From: Syntrophorhabdales bacterium
Lineage (GTDB): Bacteria; Desulfobacterota; Syntrophorhabdia; Syntrophorhabdales; Syntrophorhabdaceae
Assembly (NCBI GenBank): GCA_018052995.1
Contig: JAGPMK010000020.1
Coordinates: 1 to 37,001, forward strand
DNA length: 37,001 nucleotides
Direction of reading: 5' to 3'
Both the position numbers and the translations under genes were made by a program. A model generated the notes under the pieces. That model worked only from the letters and a program-made list of their open reading frames with translations. It had not been told where the DNA came from and ran no database searches. Shown piece after piece: positions 1-8,073 of this stretch. Numbering within the stretch: position 1 is the stretch's first letter; each line of letters starts with the position of its first letter.

Positions 1-441
1 CACCGACTGTTATTTCAAGCTTTGTGAGTCTGGCTTCAGCTGCCTTATGTGCCTCAGTGAGTTCACCGACTGTTATTTCAAGCTTTGTGAGTCTGGCTTC
101 AGCTGCCTTATGTGCCTCAGTGAGTTCGCCAACGGCTATCTCAAGCCTTGTGAGTCTGGCTTCAGCTGCCTTCTGTACCTCGGCTAGTTCACTTACCCGT
201 TGCTCTGTTCTTTTCTGTGCCTCAGCGAGTTCGCCAACGGCTATCTCAAGCCTTGTGAGTCTTTCCTCGCTTGCCTTCTGTGCCTCAGTGAGTTCGCCAA
301 CGGCTATCTCAAGCCTTGTGAGTCTGGCTTCAGCTGCCTTCTGTACCTCGGCTAGTTCACTTACCCGTTGCTCTGTTCTTTTCTGTGCCTCAGCGAGTTC
401 GGCTACACGTTGTTCTGTTCTCTTCTGCGCCTCGGCAAGCT
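1..441. repeat. In-frame 63-bp and 42-bp tandem repeats coding for coiled coil
   Basis: Bases 1-63 and 64-126 are identical. Bases 127-231 and 295-399 are also identical (105 bp, one 63-bp plus one 42-bp module). The remaining modules (232-294 and 400-441) are diverged copies. All modules are multiples of 21 bp, so they keep both the reading frame and the heptad phase. Perfect identity, including silent positions, indicates recent duplication by slippage or recombination. Confidence 0.9.
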
Positions 442-1587: not shown

Positions 1588-1893
1588 ATGTTTATATGGC
1601 TTTTTCATAGAATAAGCGGTGTCTCACTTATAATACTCTTTGGTATCAAGATACTTACAAGTTTTTTCCTCTTTACAAAAGACAAAAAGCCTGACTGGGC
1701 CCTGAGCCTCCACAGGCAGCCTATAATAGATGTCCTTATCCTTATACTCTTTACATTCCACAGTATATATGGGCTCAGGACAATCCTGATAGATTTCGGC
1801 TACAGGAAGGAAAAGAGGCTTTTCTGGCTATCTAATATTGTAGCAGGTATCATCTCCTTGATATTGATTTATATCTACCTTATTGTCTCTTAA
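1588..1893 (+). CDS. sdhC: Succinate dehydrogenase/fumarate reductase membrane anchor (SdhC-like)
   Basis: A 101-aa protein with three predicted membrane helices (about 9-29, 46-66 and 79-100). It begins with the WLFHRISG motif typical of SdhC (HRxSG, residues 7-11, quinone-site side) and has HSIYGLRTILIDF in helix II, where H58 is the likely heme b ligand. It would hold SdhA and SdhB on the membrane and pass electrons between the iron-sulfur protein and quinone. It is unusual in being the only anchor gene present: neither a second 3-helix subunit nor the long 5-helix form is seen. No Shine-Dalgarno sequence precedes the ATG, and an in-frame stop at 1576 rules out a longer start. Confidence 0.85.
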   Translation: MFIWLFHRISGVSLIILFGIKILTSFFLFTKDKKPDWALSLHRQPIIDVLILILFTFHSIYGLRTILIDFGYRKEKRLFWLSNIVAGIISLILIYIYLIVS

Positions 1894-1895
1894 CT

Positions 1896-3599
1896 ATGCT
1901 TAGCCATGACATCATCATCGTAGGCGGGGGTCTTGCCGGACTTCGGGCAGCTGTTGGGTTATGCGAGAGATATGACGTAGGTCTTCTATCAAAGGTTCAT
2001 CCCATAAGATCCCACTCCATAGCAGCCCAGGGCGGAATCAATGCATCCCTTGCAAACCATCCAGATGCAAAGGATGATTCATGGGAAAAACACACATTCG
2101 ATACAGTAAAAGGCAGTGACTATCTTGCAGACCAGGATGCAGTGGAGATTATGTGCAAACAGGCACCCCTTATTGTATATGAGATGGAGCACTGGGGGTG
2201 CCCCTTCAGCAGATTCCCTGATGGCTCTATTGCCCAGAGGCCATTTGGAGGGGCTGGTTATCCCAGGACATGCTACTCTGCTGATATTACAGGCCATGTG
2301 CTTTTGAATACCCTCTATGAAAGGGCGGTATCAAAGGGAGTCAGGGTATACCCTGAATGGTATGTCATTGCCCTTGTTACAGATAACAGCAGGTGTCACG
2401 GGGTTATTGCCTTTGATCTGATAAATGGTTCAATAGTCCCCATAAAATCAAGGGTGACACTCTTTGCCACAGGTGGCTACGGCAGGGTCTACCAGTATTC
2501 CACCAATGCCCTCATCAATACAGGAAGCGGCATTGGCATAGCCTATAGGGCAGGGGTCCCCACAAAGGATATGGAGTTTGTCCAGTTTCACCCCACAGGC
2601 CTTATAGGCACAAATATCCTCATGACTGAGGCATGCCGGGGTGAGGGTGGCTATCTCATAAATAATAGAAATGAAAGGTTTATGGAAAAGTATGCACCCA
2701 AGGCAATGGAGCTTGCGCCAAGGGATATAGTATCGAGGAGCATCCAGACCGAGATAGATGAGGGAAGGGGTTTTGAGCACCCCCTTGGTAGATACATAAA
2801 ACTCGACCTGAGGCATCTTGGCGCCCAGAAGATCCTCGAGAAATTACCAGGCATCAGAAATATCTGTATAGATTTCTTGGGCATTGACCCTATCAAGGAG
2901 CCCATACCTATTATGCCATGTCAGCACTATTCTATGGGTGGTATAGATACCAATGAAGGGGCGGCCACAGAGTTTGAGGGGTTCTATGCAGCAGGCGAGT
3001 GCGCCTGTGTGAGTGTCCATGGTGCCAACAGGCTTGGTGGAAACTCACTCCTTGATACCATTGTATTCGGCAAGCTTGCCTCCATTGCCATCGATGAATT
3101 CCTCCAGGGAAGCCATGTCCCCCCTGATGAAAAACCAATCAACAACAGGCTTGCAGATATGGAGGACACGATAAAGAGGATTGTAAACAACAAGGGAGAG
3201 AGACCATTTTCCATACAGGCAGACCTCAGTAAAAATATGAGTGCCAATGTGGGTATATTCAGAAAAAAGGATGAGCTATCCCTTGCCATTGAACATATAA
3301 TAAAGATAAAGGAGAGATACAAGGGTGTCTATGTATCCTCTTCAGACCTCCATATGAATTATGAGCTTTTAAATGCCATAGAGTTAGGGTATATGATTGA
3401 GGTTGCCCACACCATAGCAATGGGCGCATATCTAAGGGAGGAGAGCCGTGGCGCCCATGCAAGGCGGGACTTTCCCACAAGGGATGATACAAACTGGCTT
3501 AAACACACCATAGCAAGATTCGGTGCAGACGGTAGCCCGGAGATATCATTTAAGGATGTGACCATAACAAGATACCAGCCCATGGAGAGGAAATATTGA
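1896..3599 (+). CDS. sdhA: Succinate dehydrogenase/fumarate reductase flavoprotein subunit
   Basis: A 567-aa FAD protein that oxidises succinate to fumarate or does the reverse. The N-terminus has the dinucleotide-binding GGGLAG motif (residues 10-15). RSHSIAAQGG follows, in which H40 is the expected covalent FAD attachment site. Active-site signatures include FVQFHPTGL, TEACRGEGG, the HYSMGGI histidine and RLGGNSLL. The length is normal for the family. It lies 2 bases after sdhC and its stop overlaps the sdhB start, so the three are co-translated. The direction of the reaction in vivo cannot be told from sequence, but the linkage to a Rieske/cytochrome b pair hints at quinone-linked electron transfer. 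Confidence 0.95.
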   Translation: MLSHDIIIVGGGLAGLRAAVGLCERYDVGLLSKVHPIRSHSIAAQGGINASLANHPDAKDDSWEKHTFDTVKGSDYLADQDAVEIMCKQAPLIVYEMEHWGCPFSRFPDGSIAQRPFGGAGYPRTCYSADITGHVLLNTLYERAVSKGVRVYPEWYVIALVTDNSRCHGVIAFDLINGSIVPIKSRVTLFATGGYGRVYQYSTNALINTGSGIGIAYRAGVPTKDMEFVQFHPTGLIGTNILMTEACRGEGGYLINNRNERFMEKYAPKAMELAPRDIVSRSIQTEIDEGRGFEHPLGRYIKLDLRHLGAQKILEKLPGIRNICIDFLGIDPIKEPIPIMPCQHYSMGGIDTNEGAATEFEGFYAAGECACVSVHGANRLGGNSLLDTIVFGKLASIAIDEFLQGSHVPPDEKPINNRLADMEDTIKRIVNNKGERPFSIQADLSKNMSANVGIFRKKDELSLAIEHIIKIKERYKGVYVSSSDLHMNYELLNAIELGYMIEVAHTIAMGAYLREESRGAHARRDFPTRDDTNWLKHTIARFGADGSPEISFKDVTITRYQPMERKY

Positions 3600-4327
3600 T
3601 AAAGGAGACTGCATACACATTCAAGATACTGAGATTTGATTCAAAAAAACCAGAGGAGGCTCCACGTTTTCGATTATATAGGATAAGGGTCATACCAGGC
3701 CTTACCATCCTTGCAGTGCTTATAAGGATAAGGGATGAGATAGATGGGACGCTGTCCTTCCGTTCCTCCTGTCGTTCTGCAGTCTGCGGCTCCTGTGCCA
3801 TGGTCATAAATGGCAGGATCGATCTGGCATGCAGGACACAGGTGGCATCCTTTGGCACAAACACCATCATCCTTGAGCCCTTACCCAATTTCGAGATAAT
3901 AAAGGACCTTGTAGTAGATTTGACCCCATTCTGGGATATGTATGAAAAGGTAAGGCCCTATCTTATAAGAACAAGTCCTGACCCTGACAAGGAAATACAC
4001 CAGAGCGAGGGGGAGAGAAAACGCATAGACCAGTTTGTAAACTGTATACTCTGTGCCTCATGTTATGGTGCATGTCCTGTCCTGGCAAGAAACCCCGATT
4101 ACCTGGGGCCTGCTGCCATGGCAAAGCTCGAGCGGTTCATTCTGGATTCAAGGGATGAAAGGCCAGGGGATGTCCTTGATGATATAAACAATGAGAATGG
4201 TGTATGGGGTTGCGATACAGTCTTTAGATGTATTGATGCCTGCCCCAAGGATGTAAGACCCACGGATTCTATAGTGGGACTGCGAAAGGCTATTCTAAAG
4301 AAAAAGCTCCTGGGGAGATATAAATGA
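3596..4327 (+). CDS. sdhB: Succinate dehydrogenase/fumarate reductase iron-sulfur subunit
   Basis: A 243-aa protein carrying electrons from SdhA to the membrane anchor. All three cluster motifs are present: SCRSAVCGSC with a later Cys for [2Fe-2S], CILCASCYGACP for [4Fe-4S], and CDTVFRCIDACP for [3Fe-4S]. The start is a TTG at 3596 that overlaps the sdhA TGA. A GGAGAGG ribosome site 5-6 bases upstream supports it, and no ATG is available near the expected N-terminus. The gene ends in an ATGA overlap with the Rieske gene, which ties succinate dehydrogenase to the following quinol-oxidising genes. Confidence 0.95.
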   Translation: MIKETAYTFKILRFDSKKPEEAPRFRLYRIRVIPGLTILAVLIRIRDEIDGTLSFRSSCRSAVCGSCAMVINGRIDLACRTQVASFGTNTIILEPLPNFEIIKDLVVDLTPFWDMYEKVRPYLIRTSPDPDKEIHQSEGERKRIDQFVNCILCASCYGACPVLARNPDYLGPAAMAKLERFILDSRDERPGDVLDDINNENGVWGCDTVFRCIDACPKDVRPTDSIVGLRKAILKKKLLGRYK

Positions 4328-4794
4328 GGCTTAAATTCTCTCTCATAACAAGGAGGCAGTTTTTAAACACCCTTTTTGGTGGTTGGCTGATAGCATTTCT
4401 ATCAGGGGGTTTTTATACCCTTCTAAGATTTGCCTTTCCCACCCTGGGAAAGGAGCCTGATTTTGTAGTCCTAAATACCAAAGACTTTGCAGAATTACCT
4501 ACCAATTCTGTAAAACCCTTTGCATGGGGAGGAAAGCTCGGTTTTATCTTTAAAAGACCTGACAATAAGACAGTGGCATTAAAGGGTGTGTGCACCCATA
4601 TGGAGTGCAATATAACATATAGGCCAGAGGATAAAAGATTCTACTGCCCATGCCACAAGGGCTGGTTTGACATAGATGGCAGGGTCTTAGAGGGTCCTCC
4701 ACCCAAAGCTCTTGAGTTTTTAGACCTTACAGAAGAGGGCGAGAAGTTAATAGTTGCGAAAAAGGGGATAAAGGTTGAGCTGCCAAAGGCTTAA
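4324..4794 (+). CDS. Rieske [2Fe-2S] protein of a cytochrome bc-type complex
   Basis: A 156-aa protein. A twin-arginine-like start (TRRQFL, residues 9-14) leads into one membrane helix (about 17-37), which normally remains as an anchor after Tat export. The Rieske domain has CTHMEC (residues 90-95) and CPCHKGWF (108-115): C90, H92, C108 and H111 are the cluster ligands and C95/C110 the stabilising disulfide, a feature of high-potential Rieske proteins of bc/b6f complexes. Glu94 sits where Gly is usual (CTHLGC). It overlaps sdhB by 4 bases and the cytochrome b gene by 20. Expected role: taking the first electron from quinol. Confidence 0.92.
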   Translation: MRLKFSLITRRQFLNTLFGGWLIAFLSGGFYTLLRFAFPTLGKEPDFVVLNTKDFAELPTNSVKPFAWGGKLGFIFKRPDNKTVALKGVCTHMECNITYRPEDKRFYCPCHKGWFDIDGRVLEGPPPKALEFLDLTEEGEKLIVAKKGIKVELPKA

Positions 4795-5839
4795 AAAATG
4801 GTTTGATGAGCGTTATGACCTTGATGGGCTAAGGGAGTTTGCAAGGCACAAGCTCGTCCCTGTCCACAGGTATGGGTTATTATATTACACCGGTGGCCTT
4901 ACCATGTTTCTGTTTGCCCTCCAGTTTATAACAGGCATGGCCCTCAGCCTCTATTACATCCCATATCACGAACAGGCACACAAGAGTATAATAGAGATTG
5001 TCACAAAACTGAACATGGGTTGGTTTTTTCGTTCCCTCCATCATTGGGGCGCCCAGCTTGCAATTGGTGTGCTTTTTATCCACGTGTTTGGCACGCTGCT
5101 TATCAAGGCATATAGAAAACCAAGGGAGCTCATATGGATCACAGGCTTTATACTCCTTGGTATCTCTATTTTTTTTGGTCTTAGTGGCTATTTTCTCTTA
5201 TGGGATGAGCGTGCCTTTGCTGCTGTAAGGGTTGCTACAGGCGGTGCAGGCAACCTTCCTGTTATAGGCGGGTTCATAAAGTCATTCCTTAGGGGTGGTA
5301 TAGATGTTACAGGGGAGACCCTTACCCGTTTCTATGCCTTTCATGTATCGGTCCTACCATTTTTTACACTGTTTCTTATAGGGGTCCATGTCCTTCTTGT
5401 CCAGTATCACGGCATGAGCATCCCTTTATCGCAACAGAATAATGTGAAAAGATACGAGCCCTTTTTCCCAAATGTCCTCTACAAGGATTTTATAATCTGG
5501 CTTATTTGCCTTGGCGTGGTTGTTACCCTGTCTGTCCTATGTCCCCCTGAGATAGGCAAAAAGGCAGACCCCCTTGCAGCACCCCCAGAAAATATTAAAC
5601 CTGAATGGTATTTTCTCTTTCTCTTTCAGACGTTAAAACTCTTCCCGGGGGATATATTAGGCTTAAATGGTGAGATGATAGCCATCATGCTTATATCGCT
5701 GGCCATACTGTTTTTCTTCCTCATCCCATTTTTTGATAGAAAATCAGCAAGAGGCGAAAGGAGCACTGCCTTTACCTGGATAGGCATCCTCTATACTGCA
5801 TATTTTATTGTTATGACCATAGTTGGTTTTCTCACCTGA
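4775..5839 (+). CDS. Cytochrome b, full-length, with b6-like heme spacing
   Basis: A 354-aa membrane protein of the quinol-oxidising complex. Likely heme ligands are H89 and H103 (RSLHHW...FIH) and H190 and H205 (RFYAFH...GVH). The 14 residues between the last pair match cytochrome b6 rather than mitochondrial b (13). The quinol-site motif KPEWYF is at 275-280. Both halves (b6 and subunit IV equivalents) are fused. The b6f cysteine that binds heme ci is replaced by Tyr38 (LYYTGG). The start is a TTG at 4775 inside the Rieske gene with GGGG 8 bases upstream. The first in-frame ATG would remove the N-terminal helix. Confidence 0.93.
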   Translation: MSCQRLKKWFDERYDLDGLREFARHKLVPVHRYGLLYYTGGLTMFLFALQFITGMALSLYYIPYHEQAHKSIIEIVTKLNMGWFFRSLHHWGAQLAIGVLFIHVFGTLLIKAYRKPRELIWITGFILLGISIFFGLSGYFLLWDERAFAAVRVATGGAGNLPVIGGFIKSFLRGGIDVTGETLTRFYAFHVSVLPFFTLFLIGVHVLLVQYHGMSIPLSQQNNVKRYEPFFPNVLYKDFIIWLICLGVVVTLSVLCPPEIGKKADPLAAPPENIKPEWYFLFLFQTLKLFPGDILGLNGEMIAIMLISLAILFFFLIPFFDRKSARGERSTAFTWIGILYTAYFIVMTIVGFLT

Positions 5840-5850
5840 AGGAGATGGCT

Positions 5851-6141
5851 ATGAAAAAAATACCCATTACCCTTTATACACTGATAACAAAAACAACAAA
5901 ACACCTGATTCTCTCTGCAATAATAACGCTATCTGCTGCCGTACCCCTATGGGCAGAGGAGAATATAGAGGTATTTCCTTCGACGCCCTATGACAGGTTT
6001 ATAATCTATCAGTCCCTTGCCTTTTTCTGGATAGGCATAATAGGCCTTATAGTGATTATAAGGATGAAACTGAGGGAATTAGAGCGCATCCAGGATATGG
6101 GCATAGATAGAGAAGAAAAAGATATACCTCTTCTTGACTAA
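5851..6141 (+). CDS. Small membrane protein ending the sdh-Rieske-cytochrome b operon
   Basis: A 96-aa protein I do not recognise. It has a basic start and hydrophobic signal-like segment (about residues 15-36, ending ...VPLWAEE), a short exported stretch, a second membrane helix (about 52-70) and a charged cytoplasmic tail. There is no CxxCH heme motif, so it is not the missing cytochrome c. AAGGAG at 5839-5844 directly abuts an ATG at 5845, so the ATG at 5851, six bases away, is the better start. It lies 11 bases after the cytochrome b stop. It may be a structural subunit of the complex, comparable to other small single-helix subunits (inference). Confidence 0.7.
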   Translation: MKKIPITLYTLITKTTKHLILSAIITLSAAVPLWAEENIEVFPSTPYDRFIIYQSLAFFWIGIIGLIVIIRMKLRELERIQDMGIDREEKDIPLLD

Positions 6142-6171
6142 GAGAATCTAATCTATTATTATCTTCAAAAA

Positions 6172-8073
6172 ATGCACCCGTGTATCCTAAAAAATACCCT
6201 TATATCACCGTCAGGCATCAAAAGGCTCATGGCAAAACCTGAGGATAAGGATATCTATACATCCATATACAAACACCTCCAGATGTTTGAGGATAAAAAA
6301 AAGTTTGCCAGTGAGATACATACAGAGATACACCTTGTAAAACCAATAATCAAGACCCTGGGACTCTTCTATGAAACAAAGCCTGCTTTCTTTGAGGAGG
6401 GTGTTAGGCCTCCTGATATTGCCCTATTCCATACAGAGGATGCAAGGTTTAATGCATCACAACTCTGGGGGTCAAGGGAATATTATGACAACACCCTCGG
6501 CATCATCCTTGTAAAGAGATACGGCAGGACACTCCAGAAAGGCATAAGTGGTTTCTACCTTGAATTCGAAAACAGGTTACCCTTGTTTCAGATCCTCTAT
6601 ATATTGAAGAAGACAAAGACGCCATGGGGTATCCTCACCAATGGAAAAAACTGGATCCTTGTAAAAAAACCTCAAGATTTTGAGACGCAGCTTATAGAGA
6701 TAGATATAGAGTATCCCTCGGCTACCAGCGACCTCAAACCCATCCATCTTTTCTCTCAAATATTCTCCCCTGAGGGCCTATTAAAGACCATACCCGAGAT
6801 ATTAGAGGAGGAAAGGGAGGGCCTCCTCGGCATGTTAAGGGTAAAAAAAGAGGCACTTACAAAGGGGATAAGGGGCAGGGAAAAGAAGGCAAGTGTATAT
6901 CCTGTGTTATGCGACACCTATTATGAGATATTCAAGGATGGCTGCCTCCCAGAGACAGAGGGATACCTTAAGGAAAGGGATGTAAGACTTGACCTCAAGA
7001 CACCTGTGGCAACAGATACCATAAACCCATACAATGCCCCCCATATATTTGGCTATTTGTTTTCACTGAAGGCCAAACAGACAGGGATTGATATGGATTT
7101 CATACTTGATAATCTTTTTGATGGAAAAAGATACACAAAGGAGTCTGTGCTGAACCTCAAGATCCTTGAAATGACCCCTAATTTTGGTTCCATCACATCC
7201 TGTATAATAGAGGGTCTTGCCTACATATCCTTTAATCTGCCATACAGTGAAAAAAATACCTTTAATACTGAGTGGGAGGATGAACAAGGACTGAAAAAAC
7301 ACATACTCGAGACAGTCCTATACGGTGTAGAGAGGTCCCATATTGCCTATGATATATTTCAGGATTCCATGTTCAGAAGGTTTGGCTTTAAATCAAGGCA
7401 CCTCAGACTGGGGAATCCCCTTATAGGGATGTCCATGGAAGATCTAAAAAACCATATGGAAACAAAAGACCAGATGGAGCTATTTAATAAAAACCCCATG
7501 GAGGTTCTCACAGAGCTGAGGGGGATGTTCAGGCAGTTTTACTCCCTATCCGATAGAATAAAAGAGGACATGGTGGAGAGGGGCCGCATCGAGGCAACAC
7601 TTAACATATATATTAACAGGATAAGGGATGTCATGGATGTCATCACATCCACATACTTTGTAAAAGGGATAGACAAAAAGAAGGTCCAGGGGCTTATATC
7701 CGTCCTTGGTGCTGATGAGCCCACATGGGATGCAATAAGAAAGAGTAGCTGGTTTATAGAGGCAAGAGAGGCTGCAATGAGAAATGGATTCTTCCATTTT
7801 GAGATAGAGTTCCCCTTTCTCCTCAACGATGCCTTTGACCTCATATTTGTCCAACCAGGCTCAACATACATCTGGGAGCAGGATCTTCCGGTTATTGAGC
7901 TTACAAAGGCGTATATCAAGAGGGGATCTTCTTACATGAGGCAAGATGGAAGGCTGGTAGTTATTGCACCAGGCTTTGAGGATAGCCTCATGGCAGAGCT
8001 CGAGGGTTCTAAAAAATATAAGACAGAGAAAAGAGATGACCTGATTATATTAAGCAAGAAAAGGATGGTTTAG
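6172..8073 (+). CDS. Type IIG restriction-modification-like protein with eroded catalytic motifs
   Basis: A 633-aa intact frame that follows the layout of Eco57I-type enzymes. An N-terminal nuclease-like region has PDIALF (81-86), ILVKRYG (112-118) and WGILTNG (152-158); active relatives read E-A-K where this has L-V-K. The methyltransferase part has ILEMTPNFGS (331-340) in place of motif I DPACGSG, then YGVERSHIAYDI (384-395), RLGNPLIG (412-419), and FDLIFVQPGS (555-564) in place of FDVVIGNPPY. All three catalytic sites therefore look lost while the scaffold is kept. It stops soon after motif IV, without a target-recognition domain. It lies 30 bases after the preceding gene, same strand. The ATG at 6172 has no ribosome site; ATG 6229 (AAAAGG upstream) is an alternative. 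Confidence 0.65.
   Translation: MHPCILKNTLISPSGIKRLMAKPEDKDIYTSIYKHLQMFEDKKKFASEIHTEIHLVKPIIKTLGLFYETKPAFFEEGVRPPDIALFHTEDARFNASQLWGSREYYDNTLGIILVKRYGRTLQKGISGFYLEFENRLPLFQILYILKKTKTPWGILTNGKNWILVKKPQDFETQLIEIDIEYPSATSDLKPIHLFSQIFSPEGLLKTIPEILEEEREGLLGMLRVKKEALTKGIRGREKKASVYPVLCDTYYEIFKDGCLPETEGYLKERDVRLDLKTPVATDTINPYNAPHIFGYLFSLKAKQTGIDMDFILDNLFDGKRYTKESVLNLKILEMTPNFGSITSCIIEGLAYISFNLPYSEKNTFNTEWEDEQGLKKHILETVLYGVERSHIAYDIFQDSMFRRFGFKSRHLRLGNPLIGMSMEDLKNHMETKDQMELFNKNPMEVLTELRGMFRQFYSLSDRIKEDMVERGRIEATLNIYINRIRDVMDVITSTYFVKGIDKKKVQGLISVLGADEPTWDAIRKSSWFIEAREAAMRNGFFHFEIEFPFLLNDAFDLIFVQPGSTYIWEQDLPVIELTKAYIKRGSSYMRQDGRLVVIAPGFEDSLMAELEGSKKYKTEKRDDLIILSKKRMV

Follow-up and report, generated by a model that had tools for sequence, protein, structure and literature searches.

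Type IIG restriction-modification enzymes are defined in PMC4081073, which also records a variant whose nuclease motif contains Gln instead of Glu. The MmeI homologue DnmA (YeeA) from Bacillus subtilis lacks the nuclease motif, stands outside an active restriction system and is an active, sequence-specific m6A methylase (PMC7261158). CamA of Clostridioides difficile is a clade-specific orphan adenine methylase that is active and present in all genomes of the species (PMC8187626). METTL14, the partner of METTL3, carries EPPL in place of DPPW and is non-catalytic, contributing complex integrity and RNA binding (PMC5023411).

Here we analysed a protein, pseudo-IIG, encoded in a 37,001-nucleotide stretch of Syntrophorhabdales DNA (hereafter the window). 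It shares with Eco57I-type IIG enzymes a collinear nuclease, linker and methylase core and the signatures FFH.E.EFP and GN.LIG, but it is half as long as the 1363-aa intact protein used for comparison, has no target-recognition domain and has lost both the (D/E)xK acid and NPPY; also unlike those enzymes, it is vertically inherited and near-universal in two families of one order. Like DnmA and other MmeI homologues, it is a relative of bifunctional restriction-modification enzymes with the nuclease motif missing, although NPPY and the target-recognition part, unlike in DnmA, are gone as well. CamA, likewise clade-specific and also a structural neighbour of the AF2 model of pseudo-IIG, differs in being catalytically active and in recognising a DNA sequence. 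The EPPL of METTL14 resembles the QP[AS]L that replaces NPPY in pseudo-IIG, but METTL14 is eukaryotic, has only the class I methylase fold in common with it and forms a heterodimer with an active partner. A literature search combining Syntrophorhabdus with restriction returned nothing on the pseudo-IIG gene.

Homology to Type IIG enzymes and altered motifs

The pseudo-IIG open reading frame (6172-8073, + strand) begins with ATG and runs through 633 codons with no internal stop, as stated in the preliminary description. Sequence searches with the single protein against Pfam, NCBIfam and PDB yielded no trustworthy match, and neither did a 32-member alignment against Pfam and PDB. The curated Eco57I model (Pfam PF07669) matched neither the window protein nor any of the 32 members, no Type IIG family model of NCBIfam passed for the window protein, and a match to Pfam DUF7809 (E 0.057), below the cut-off, was taken as chance. 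Pseudo-IIG represents a protein family unrecognised by Pfam or NCBIfam.

The relationship to Type IIG enzymes was recovered by hhalign, using the ortholog profile and an intact IIG protein of 1363 aa that belongs to a different family of the phylum (L036:1407-5498; Pfam Eco57I and TaqI_C). The two aligned with a probability of 99.5, an E-value of 2.8e-22 and 27% identity, residues 6-599 of pseudo-IIG being collinear with residues 5-891 of the intact protein, and a second intact IIG protein aligned with the nuclease domain (E 1e-13). Foldseek searches with the AF2 model (pLDDT 89.9, pTM 0.90) gave DrdV, BrxX/PglX and BpuSI as top matches with probabilities of 0.96-1.00 and low global TM (0.16-0.24 on the query), and also reached CamA and the non-DNA class I methylases TrmR and METTL15; the nuclease domain alone gave weak matches only (TT1808, BpuSI and HsdR; E 0.012 and above). 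The methylase and C-terminal half of the intact 1363-aa relative matches M.TaqI, and AFDLILGNPPY in the intact relative corresponds to AFDLIFVQPGS in the window protein. Homology to a nuclease and to a gamma-class N6 methylase core is present in one chain (hhalign, Foldseek). Pseudo-IIG matches, in collinear order, the first two thirds of Eco57I-type IIG enzymes; the homology is real but remote. The preliminary description had proposed an Eco57I-type architecture, to be abandoned if profile searches found no similarity to Type IIG enzymes; both hhalign and Foldseek found such enzymes, and the proposal was borne out.

Motif conservation was scored across 33 aligned orthologues (Table 1) and read against the general rules for methylase motifs I, II, IV and X. 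Mean column identity is 71% in the nuclease-like domain vs 64% over the whole protein, and the linker (aa 201-322) is under weaker constraint than the nuclease domain. Residues invariant in the nuclease region (33/33) are E48, E52, E68, P81, D82, K115, R116, E133, N134, Q140 and T156-N157-G158. Position 113, where most intact relatives have the acid of an ExK motif spanning 113-115, is Leu in 22 of the 33, otherwise V, M, Q (two orthologues), F, I or another residue, and acidic in none (0/33). An acid near position 133 and a Gln equivalent to Q140 are usual in intact relatives too. The isoelectric point is 9.0 for the nuclease-like domain and 6.7, near neutral, for the whole protein.

In the methylase half, the first residue of motif I is acidic throughout (D in 32, E in 1) and the final glycine, G339, is present in 33/33, whereas G337 is replaced by Asn in 12/33. 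At motif IV, Q and P each occur in 32/33 and are followed by A, S or another residue, with no aromatic at the fourth place in most; NPP[YFW] is found in 0/33, its place being taken by QP[AS]L and variants. Most intact relatives, in contrast, keep the nuclease acid, DPAMGSG and NPP[YW]. The motif X region also appears altered (YN vs YTP), and W368, E369, W568, E569 and K583 are conserved. The chain ends ~70 residues past motif IV, and no target-recognition domain follows that motif in any of the 33 orthologues. The window copy departs further from the family consensus at E333, N337, G563 and S564.

Table 1. Positions of pseudo-IIG features and of the adjoining promoter and operon, numbered along the window
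Feature	Position	Strand	Evidence or remark
sdhCAB / Rieske / cytochrome b / small membrane protein operon	1588..6141	+	immediately upstream in 34 genomes
-35 element TTGACT, running into the stop codon of the small gene before it	6134..6139	+	present upstream of all 33 orthologues
-10 element TATTAT, 17 nt from -35, 9 nt before ATG	6157..6162	+	orthologue upstream comparison
Pseudo-IIG protein, 633 aa	6172..8073	+	ORF call, orthologues, AF2 pLDDT 89.9
N-terminal PD-(D/E)xK-like domain, aa 1-200	6172..6771	+	hhalign; weak Foldseek matches TT1808, BpuSI, HsdR
P81-D82, nuclease site, invariant 33/33	6412..6417	+	orthologue alignment
L113-V114-K115 at the (D/E)xK position; acid absent 33/33, Lys invariant	6508..6516	+	alignment
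E133-N134...P137...Q140, invariant	6568..6591	+	orthologue alignment
Helical linker, aa 201-322, shorter than in intact IIG enzymes	6772..7137	+	hhalign, AF2
Motif I position EMTPNFG, aa 333-339; family consensus DMTPGFG	7168..7188	+	alignment
E387 at motif II, invariant 33/33	7330..7332	+	alignment
GNPLIG, counterpart of GNSLIG in an intact IIG enzyme	7411..7428	+	hhalign, alignment
Motif IV position VQPGS, aa 560-564; family VQP[AS]L vs GNPP[YW]	7849..7863	+	alignment

The three motif readings given earlier for the window protein (LVK at 113-115, EMTPNFG at 333-339, VQPGS at 560-564) are right. The accompanying statement that all three active sites are eroded holds in that the decisive pieces are gone, but it goes slightly too far with respect to P81-D82, K115, Q140, the acid and glycine of motif I and E387, all of which are kept; each active site has lost a decisive piece, not the whole. 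Since the motif I acid and last glycine and the motif II glutamate are retained, pseudo-IIG may, judging from these residues, still bind SAM or another ligand. The earlier term 'catalytically dead' is accordingly too strict, as chemistry on a different acceptor is also conceivable, and the DNA-binding, regulatory or defence-sensing role suggested with it is a candidate function.

Distribution, selection and genomic context

Pseudo-IIG orthologues were found in 42 of 46 Syntrophorhabdales genomes, some of the copies being cut by contig ends. By family, they occur in 38/39 genomes of f1, 4/4 of f2 and 0/3 of f3. One genome (G009, 92% complete) lacks both pseudo-IIG and cytochrome b, which fits a missing contig. 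Outside the order, matches in a 395-genome sample of the phylum comprised only large proteins (~900-1500 aa) and one contig-edge fragment. Beyond the phylum, the search covered plasmids, phages and viral contigs, together with genome contigs scanned for close relatives: phages and viral contigs contained no relative of pseudo-IIG, plasmids only partial, distant matches to intact-type enzymes, and a phage, plasmid or viral origin was rejected on these grounds. The orthologues form one clade in which genera mostly hold together, consistent with vertical descent, and the gene is single-copy and at a fixed locus in most genomes.

Pairwise dN/dS was 0.06-0.18 for the pairs with the lowest dS and 0.03-0.09 for the nuclease domain in the close pairs examined by domain; the methylase half is also under purifying selection. 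The earlier claim that selection has preserved the protein is therefore upheld by dN/dS. The orthologue comparison proposed with it places the loss of the canonical motifs across the family (0/33 with an acid at position 113, 0/33 with NPP[YFW]). The opposite outcome, a lone decaying copy among orthologues with canonical motifs, was not observed, these motifs being absent in 33/33; the loss is old and family-wide, not private to the window genome. Pseudo-IIG thus combines loss of catalytic residues in all 33 members with purifying selection, as expected of a pseudoenzyme under selection.

As also noted earlier, pseudo-IIG has neither a partner methylase nor a specificity gene beside it, and this was confirmed: no S gene is adjacent at the window locus, where the next gene is convergent and unrelated. 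A more distant partner, in the manner of METTL3 and METTL14 with an intact Eco57I enzyme as the active member, was considered and rejected, no co-conserved partner being found. Three genomes (G001-G003) have no Eco57I-family match and the window genome (G000) only a weak match of 249 aa, so an intact IIG partner is not required. Assignment to BREX as PglX/BrxX does not agree with the locus, where the neighbours are respiratory and housekeeping genes, or with the loss of motif IV. One genome of the order (G011; noted at L037:5340-9446) has many Eco57I-type proteins, giving 13 PF07669 matches, besides its own pseudo-IIG.

Promoter and upstream operon

Pseudo-IIG starts 30 nt past the end of a respiratory operon in the window; in most genomes, ~27-38 nt separate it from the small membrane-protein gene. 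This operon (1588-6141) combines sdhC, sdhA, sdhB, a Rieske gene, cytochrome b and the gene for a small membrane protein; a cytochrome c1 gene was not seen in it. It is conserved across most of the order and absent as a block in several genomes. The small membrane protein that closes it (98 aa, 5845-6141) is conserved in the order. In 34 genomes pseudo-IIG shares its contig with cytochrome b, which lies a short way upstream, mostly at ~0.3 kb and in G037 at 1.6 kb.

All 33 orthologues are preceded by a promoter-like sequence, TTGACT followed after 17-18 nt by TAT[TGC]AT (TATTCT in two), 5-17 nt before the ATG; L029 is counted among the 33, the element being present in its sequence. In most orthologues the -35 element runs into the small gene's stop codon (CTTGACTAA), and in two f2 genomes (G037, G039) the promoter is present without a small membrane-protein gene abutting it. 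No evident Shine-Dalgarno sequence was found upstream of pseudo-IIG in the 33 orthologues, and the mRNA is predicted from this arrangement to be leaderless or nearly leaderless. The pattern TTGACN-N17/18-TANNAT-N4-10-ATG has 24 sites in the window genome (G000) vs 4 for the reversed control pattern, an excess suggesting that genes with no leader or almost none are not uncommon there. We accordingly discarded the leaderless promoter as a sign of special regulation, since other genes seem to use it too.

Possible roles of pseudo-IIG

Our best explanation, which we hold with about even confidence, is that pseudo-IIG is a vertically inherited double pseudoenzyme, a non-catalytic protein binding nucleic acid or a ligand and derived from an Eco57I-type restriction-modification enzyme. 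Computation shows the ancestry in a single-chain enzyme of this type, together with the truncation and the motif losses: gone are the acid that binds metal in the nuclease, the NPPY tetrapeptide of the adenine methylase and all of the target-recognition half. It likewise shows conservation, selection, a conserved promoter-like sequence and retention of the gene without the operon. What is left, the PD-(D/E)xK fold and the methylase core with a shortened helical linker between them, is inherited vertically and kept by strong purifying selection. Transcription is predicted to start at a sigma-70 promoter belonging to the gene itself and not to depend on the respiratory operon upstream. The basic nuclease-like domain, with its invariant D82, K115 and R116, could act as a non-cutting binding module for nucleic acid or for a protein partner, and the remodelled methylase pocket could bind SAM or a related ligand as a switch. 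We infer that the protein works without catalysis; the conserved W368, E369, W568, E569 and K583 could equally mark a new active site, and the pI of the whole protein counts against this best reading, as strong nucleic-acid binders are not typically near neutral.

A more specific version can be offered only tentatively: a restriction-modification enzyme may have been domesticated early in Syntrophorhabdales (f1, f2) into a core housekeeping switch that senses SAM or nucleotides and binds nucleic acid, with both its nuclease and its methylase dead. Across nearly the whole order, what was once an enzyme of defence seems to have taken on a new housekeeping task and, if this reading is true, pseudo-IIG is a clear case of defence machinery domesticated into core function. 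Dead nucleases and dead methylases are each known, as are restriction-modification relatives with one dead half, such as DnmA. To our knowledge, no Type IIG descendant has been described in which decisive residues of both activities and the sequence-reading half are lost and which is nevertheless kept almost order-wide with a fixed promoter. The hosts are syntrophic bacteria that are hard to study, and a target of 633 residues allows direct tests of ligands and partners.

The main rival is that pseudo-IIG is a remodelled but active methyltransferase, one that still binds SAM and in which NPPY disappeared through a change of acceptor (to RNA, protein or a small molecule), not through loss of catalysis. 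We regard this as rather unlikely, though several features favour it: the DMTPGFG consensus keeps the acid and final glycine, the motif II glutamate is invariant, the methylase half is itself constrained, and the structural matches extend to TrmR and METTL15. M.TaqI, moreover, has an atypical motif I, EPACAHG, close in kind to EMTPNFG. The frequent Asn at position 337 and the altered look of motif X, however, speak against it, and a methylase with a changed acceptor leaves the strong conservation of the nuclease domain unexplained.

That conservation would be accounted for if the nuclease half still cut, with E133 or an N-terminal glutamate such as E52 replacing the lost (D/E)xK acid, as happens in nucleases with a relocated acid, and the invariance of E48, E52, E68, D82, K115, E133 and Q140 is compatible with such a relocation. 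This is improbable in our judgement, because no target-recognition domain is left to aim the nuclease and the loop at 124-134 is predicted with low confidence in the AF2 model. E133 in particular is not a compensating gain, since intact relatives with the ExK acid usually have an acid near there, and the idea of a catalytic acid migrated to E133 is weakened accordingly.

A role in defence, with a dead restriction enzyme acting as a sensor or decoy for phage anti-restriction proteins, would suit the restriction-modification ancestry, and one of the structural neighbours is BrxX/PglX, for which a structure bound to the phage inhibitor Ocr has been solved as well. Defence genes tend to have a patchy distribution, however, whereas pseudo-IIG is inherited vertically, occupies a fixed locus in most genomes and has no relatives in phages or viral contigs. 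A defence role, for which we see little probability, is less likely than a chromosomal one in housekeeping or regulation, given that the gene is non-mobile, single-copy and found almost throughout two families.

That pseudo-IIG regulates or assists the sdhCAB / Rieske / cytochrome b operon would be a natural reading of the short distance to the operon's last gene, and the observation in the preliminary description that pseudo-IIG closely follows a respiratory operon is correct as to position. The gene nevertheless has its own promoter in every orthologue. It also survives loss of the operon: in four genomes (G020, G025, G022, G004) no cytochrome b match was found, the small gene is reduced to its last codons (e.g. 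VKEKGTPFLD*, LDREKTYLILD*, KDAPSLD*), and the promoter and pseudo-IIG follow. The gene found upstream of the operon in G018 adjoins pseudo-IIG in G020 and G022. Conversely, in two f3 genomes the two genes known from the downstream side in the window follow the operon directly, leaving an empty site where pseudo-IIG would stand. The hinted functional link is thus unsupported; pseudo-IIG was rejected as a functional part of the operon, the operon is judged not to belong to the pseudo-IIG system, and a regulatory tie between them is very unlikely. Decay of a lone gene whose frame stayed open by chance, for which only the additional consensus departures of the window copy could be adduced, is refuted by the distribution over 42/46 genomes, the open frames of the full-length copies and the dN/dS of 0.06-0.18.

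Two minor observations concern the surroundings. The gene upstream of the sdh operon in G018 (L054:15090-15578), which stands beside pseudo-IIG in G020 and G022, encodes a conserved charged protein of 162 aa on the opposite strand. At the contig edge, window positions 1-433 carry tandem repeats of period 63 and 168 inside a low-complexity open frame (24-620, +), whose strand may or may not be the coding one.
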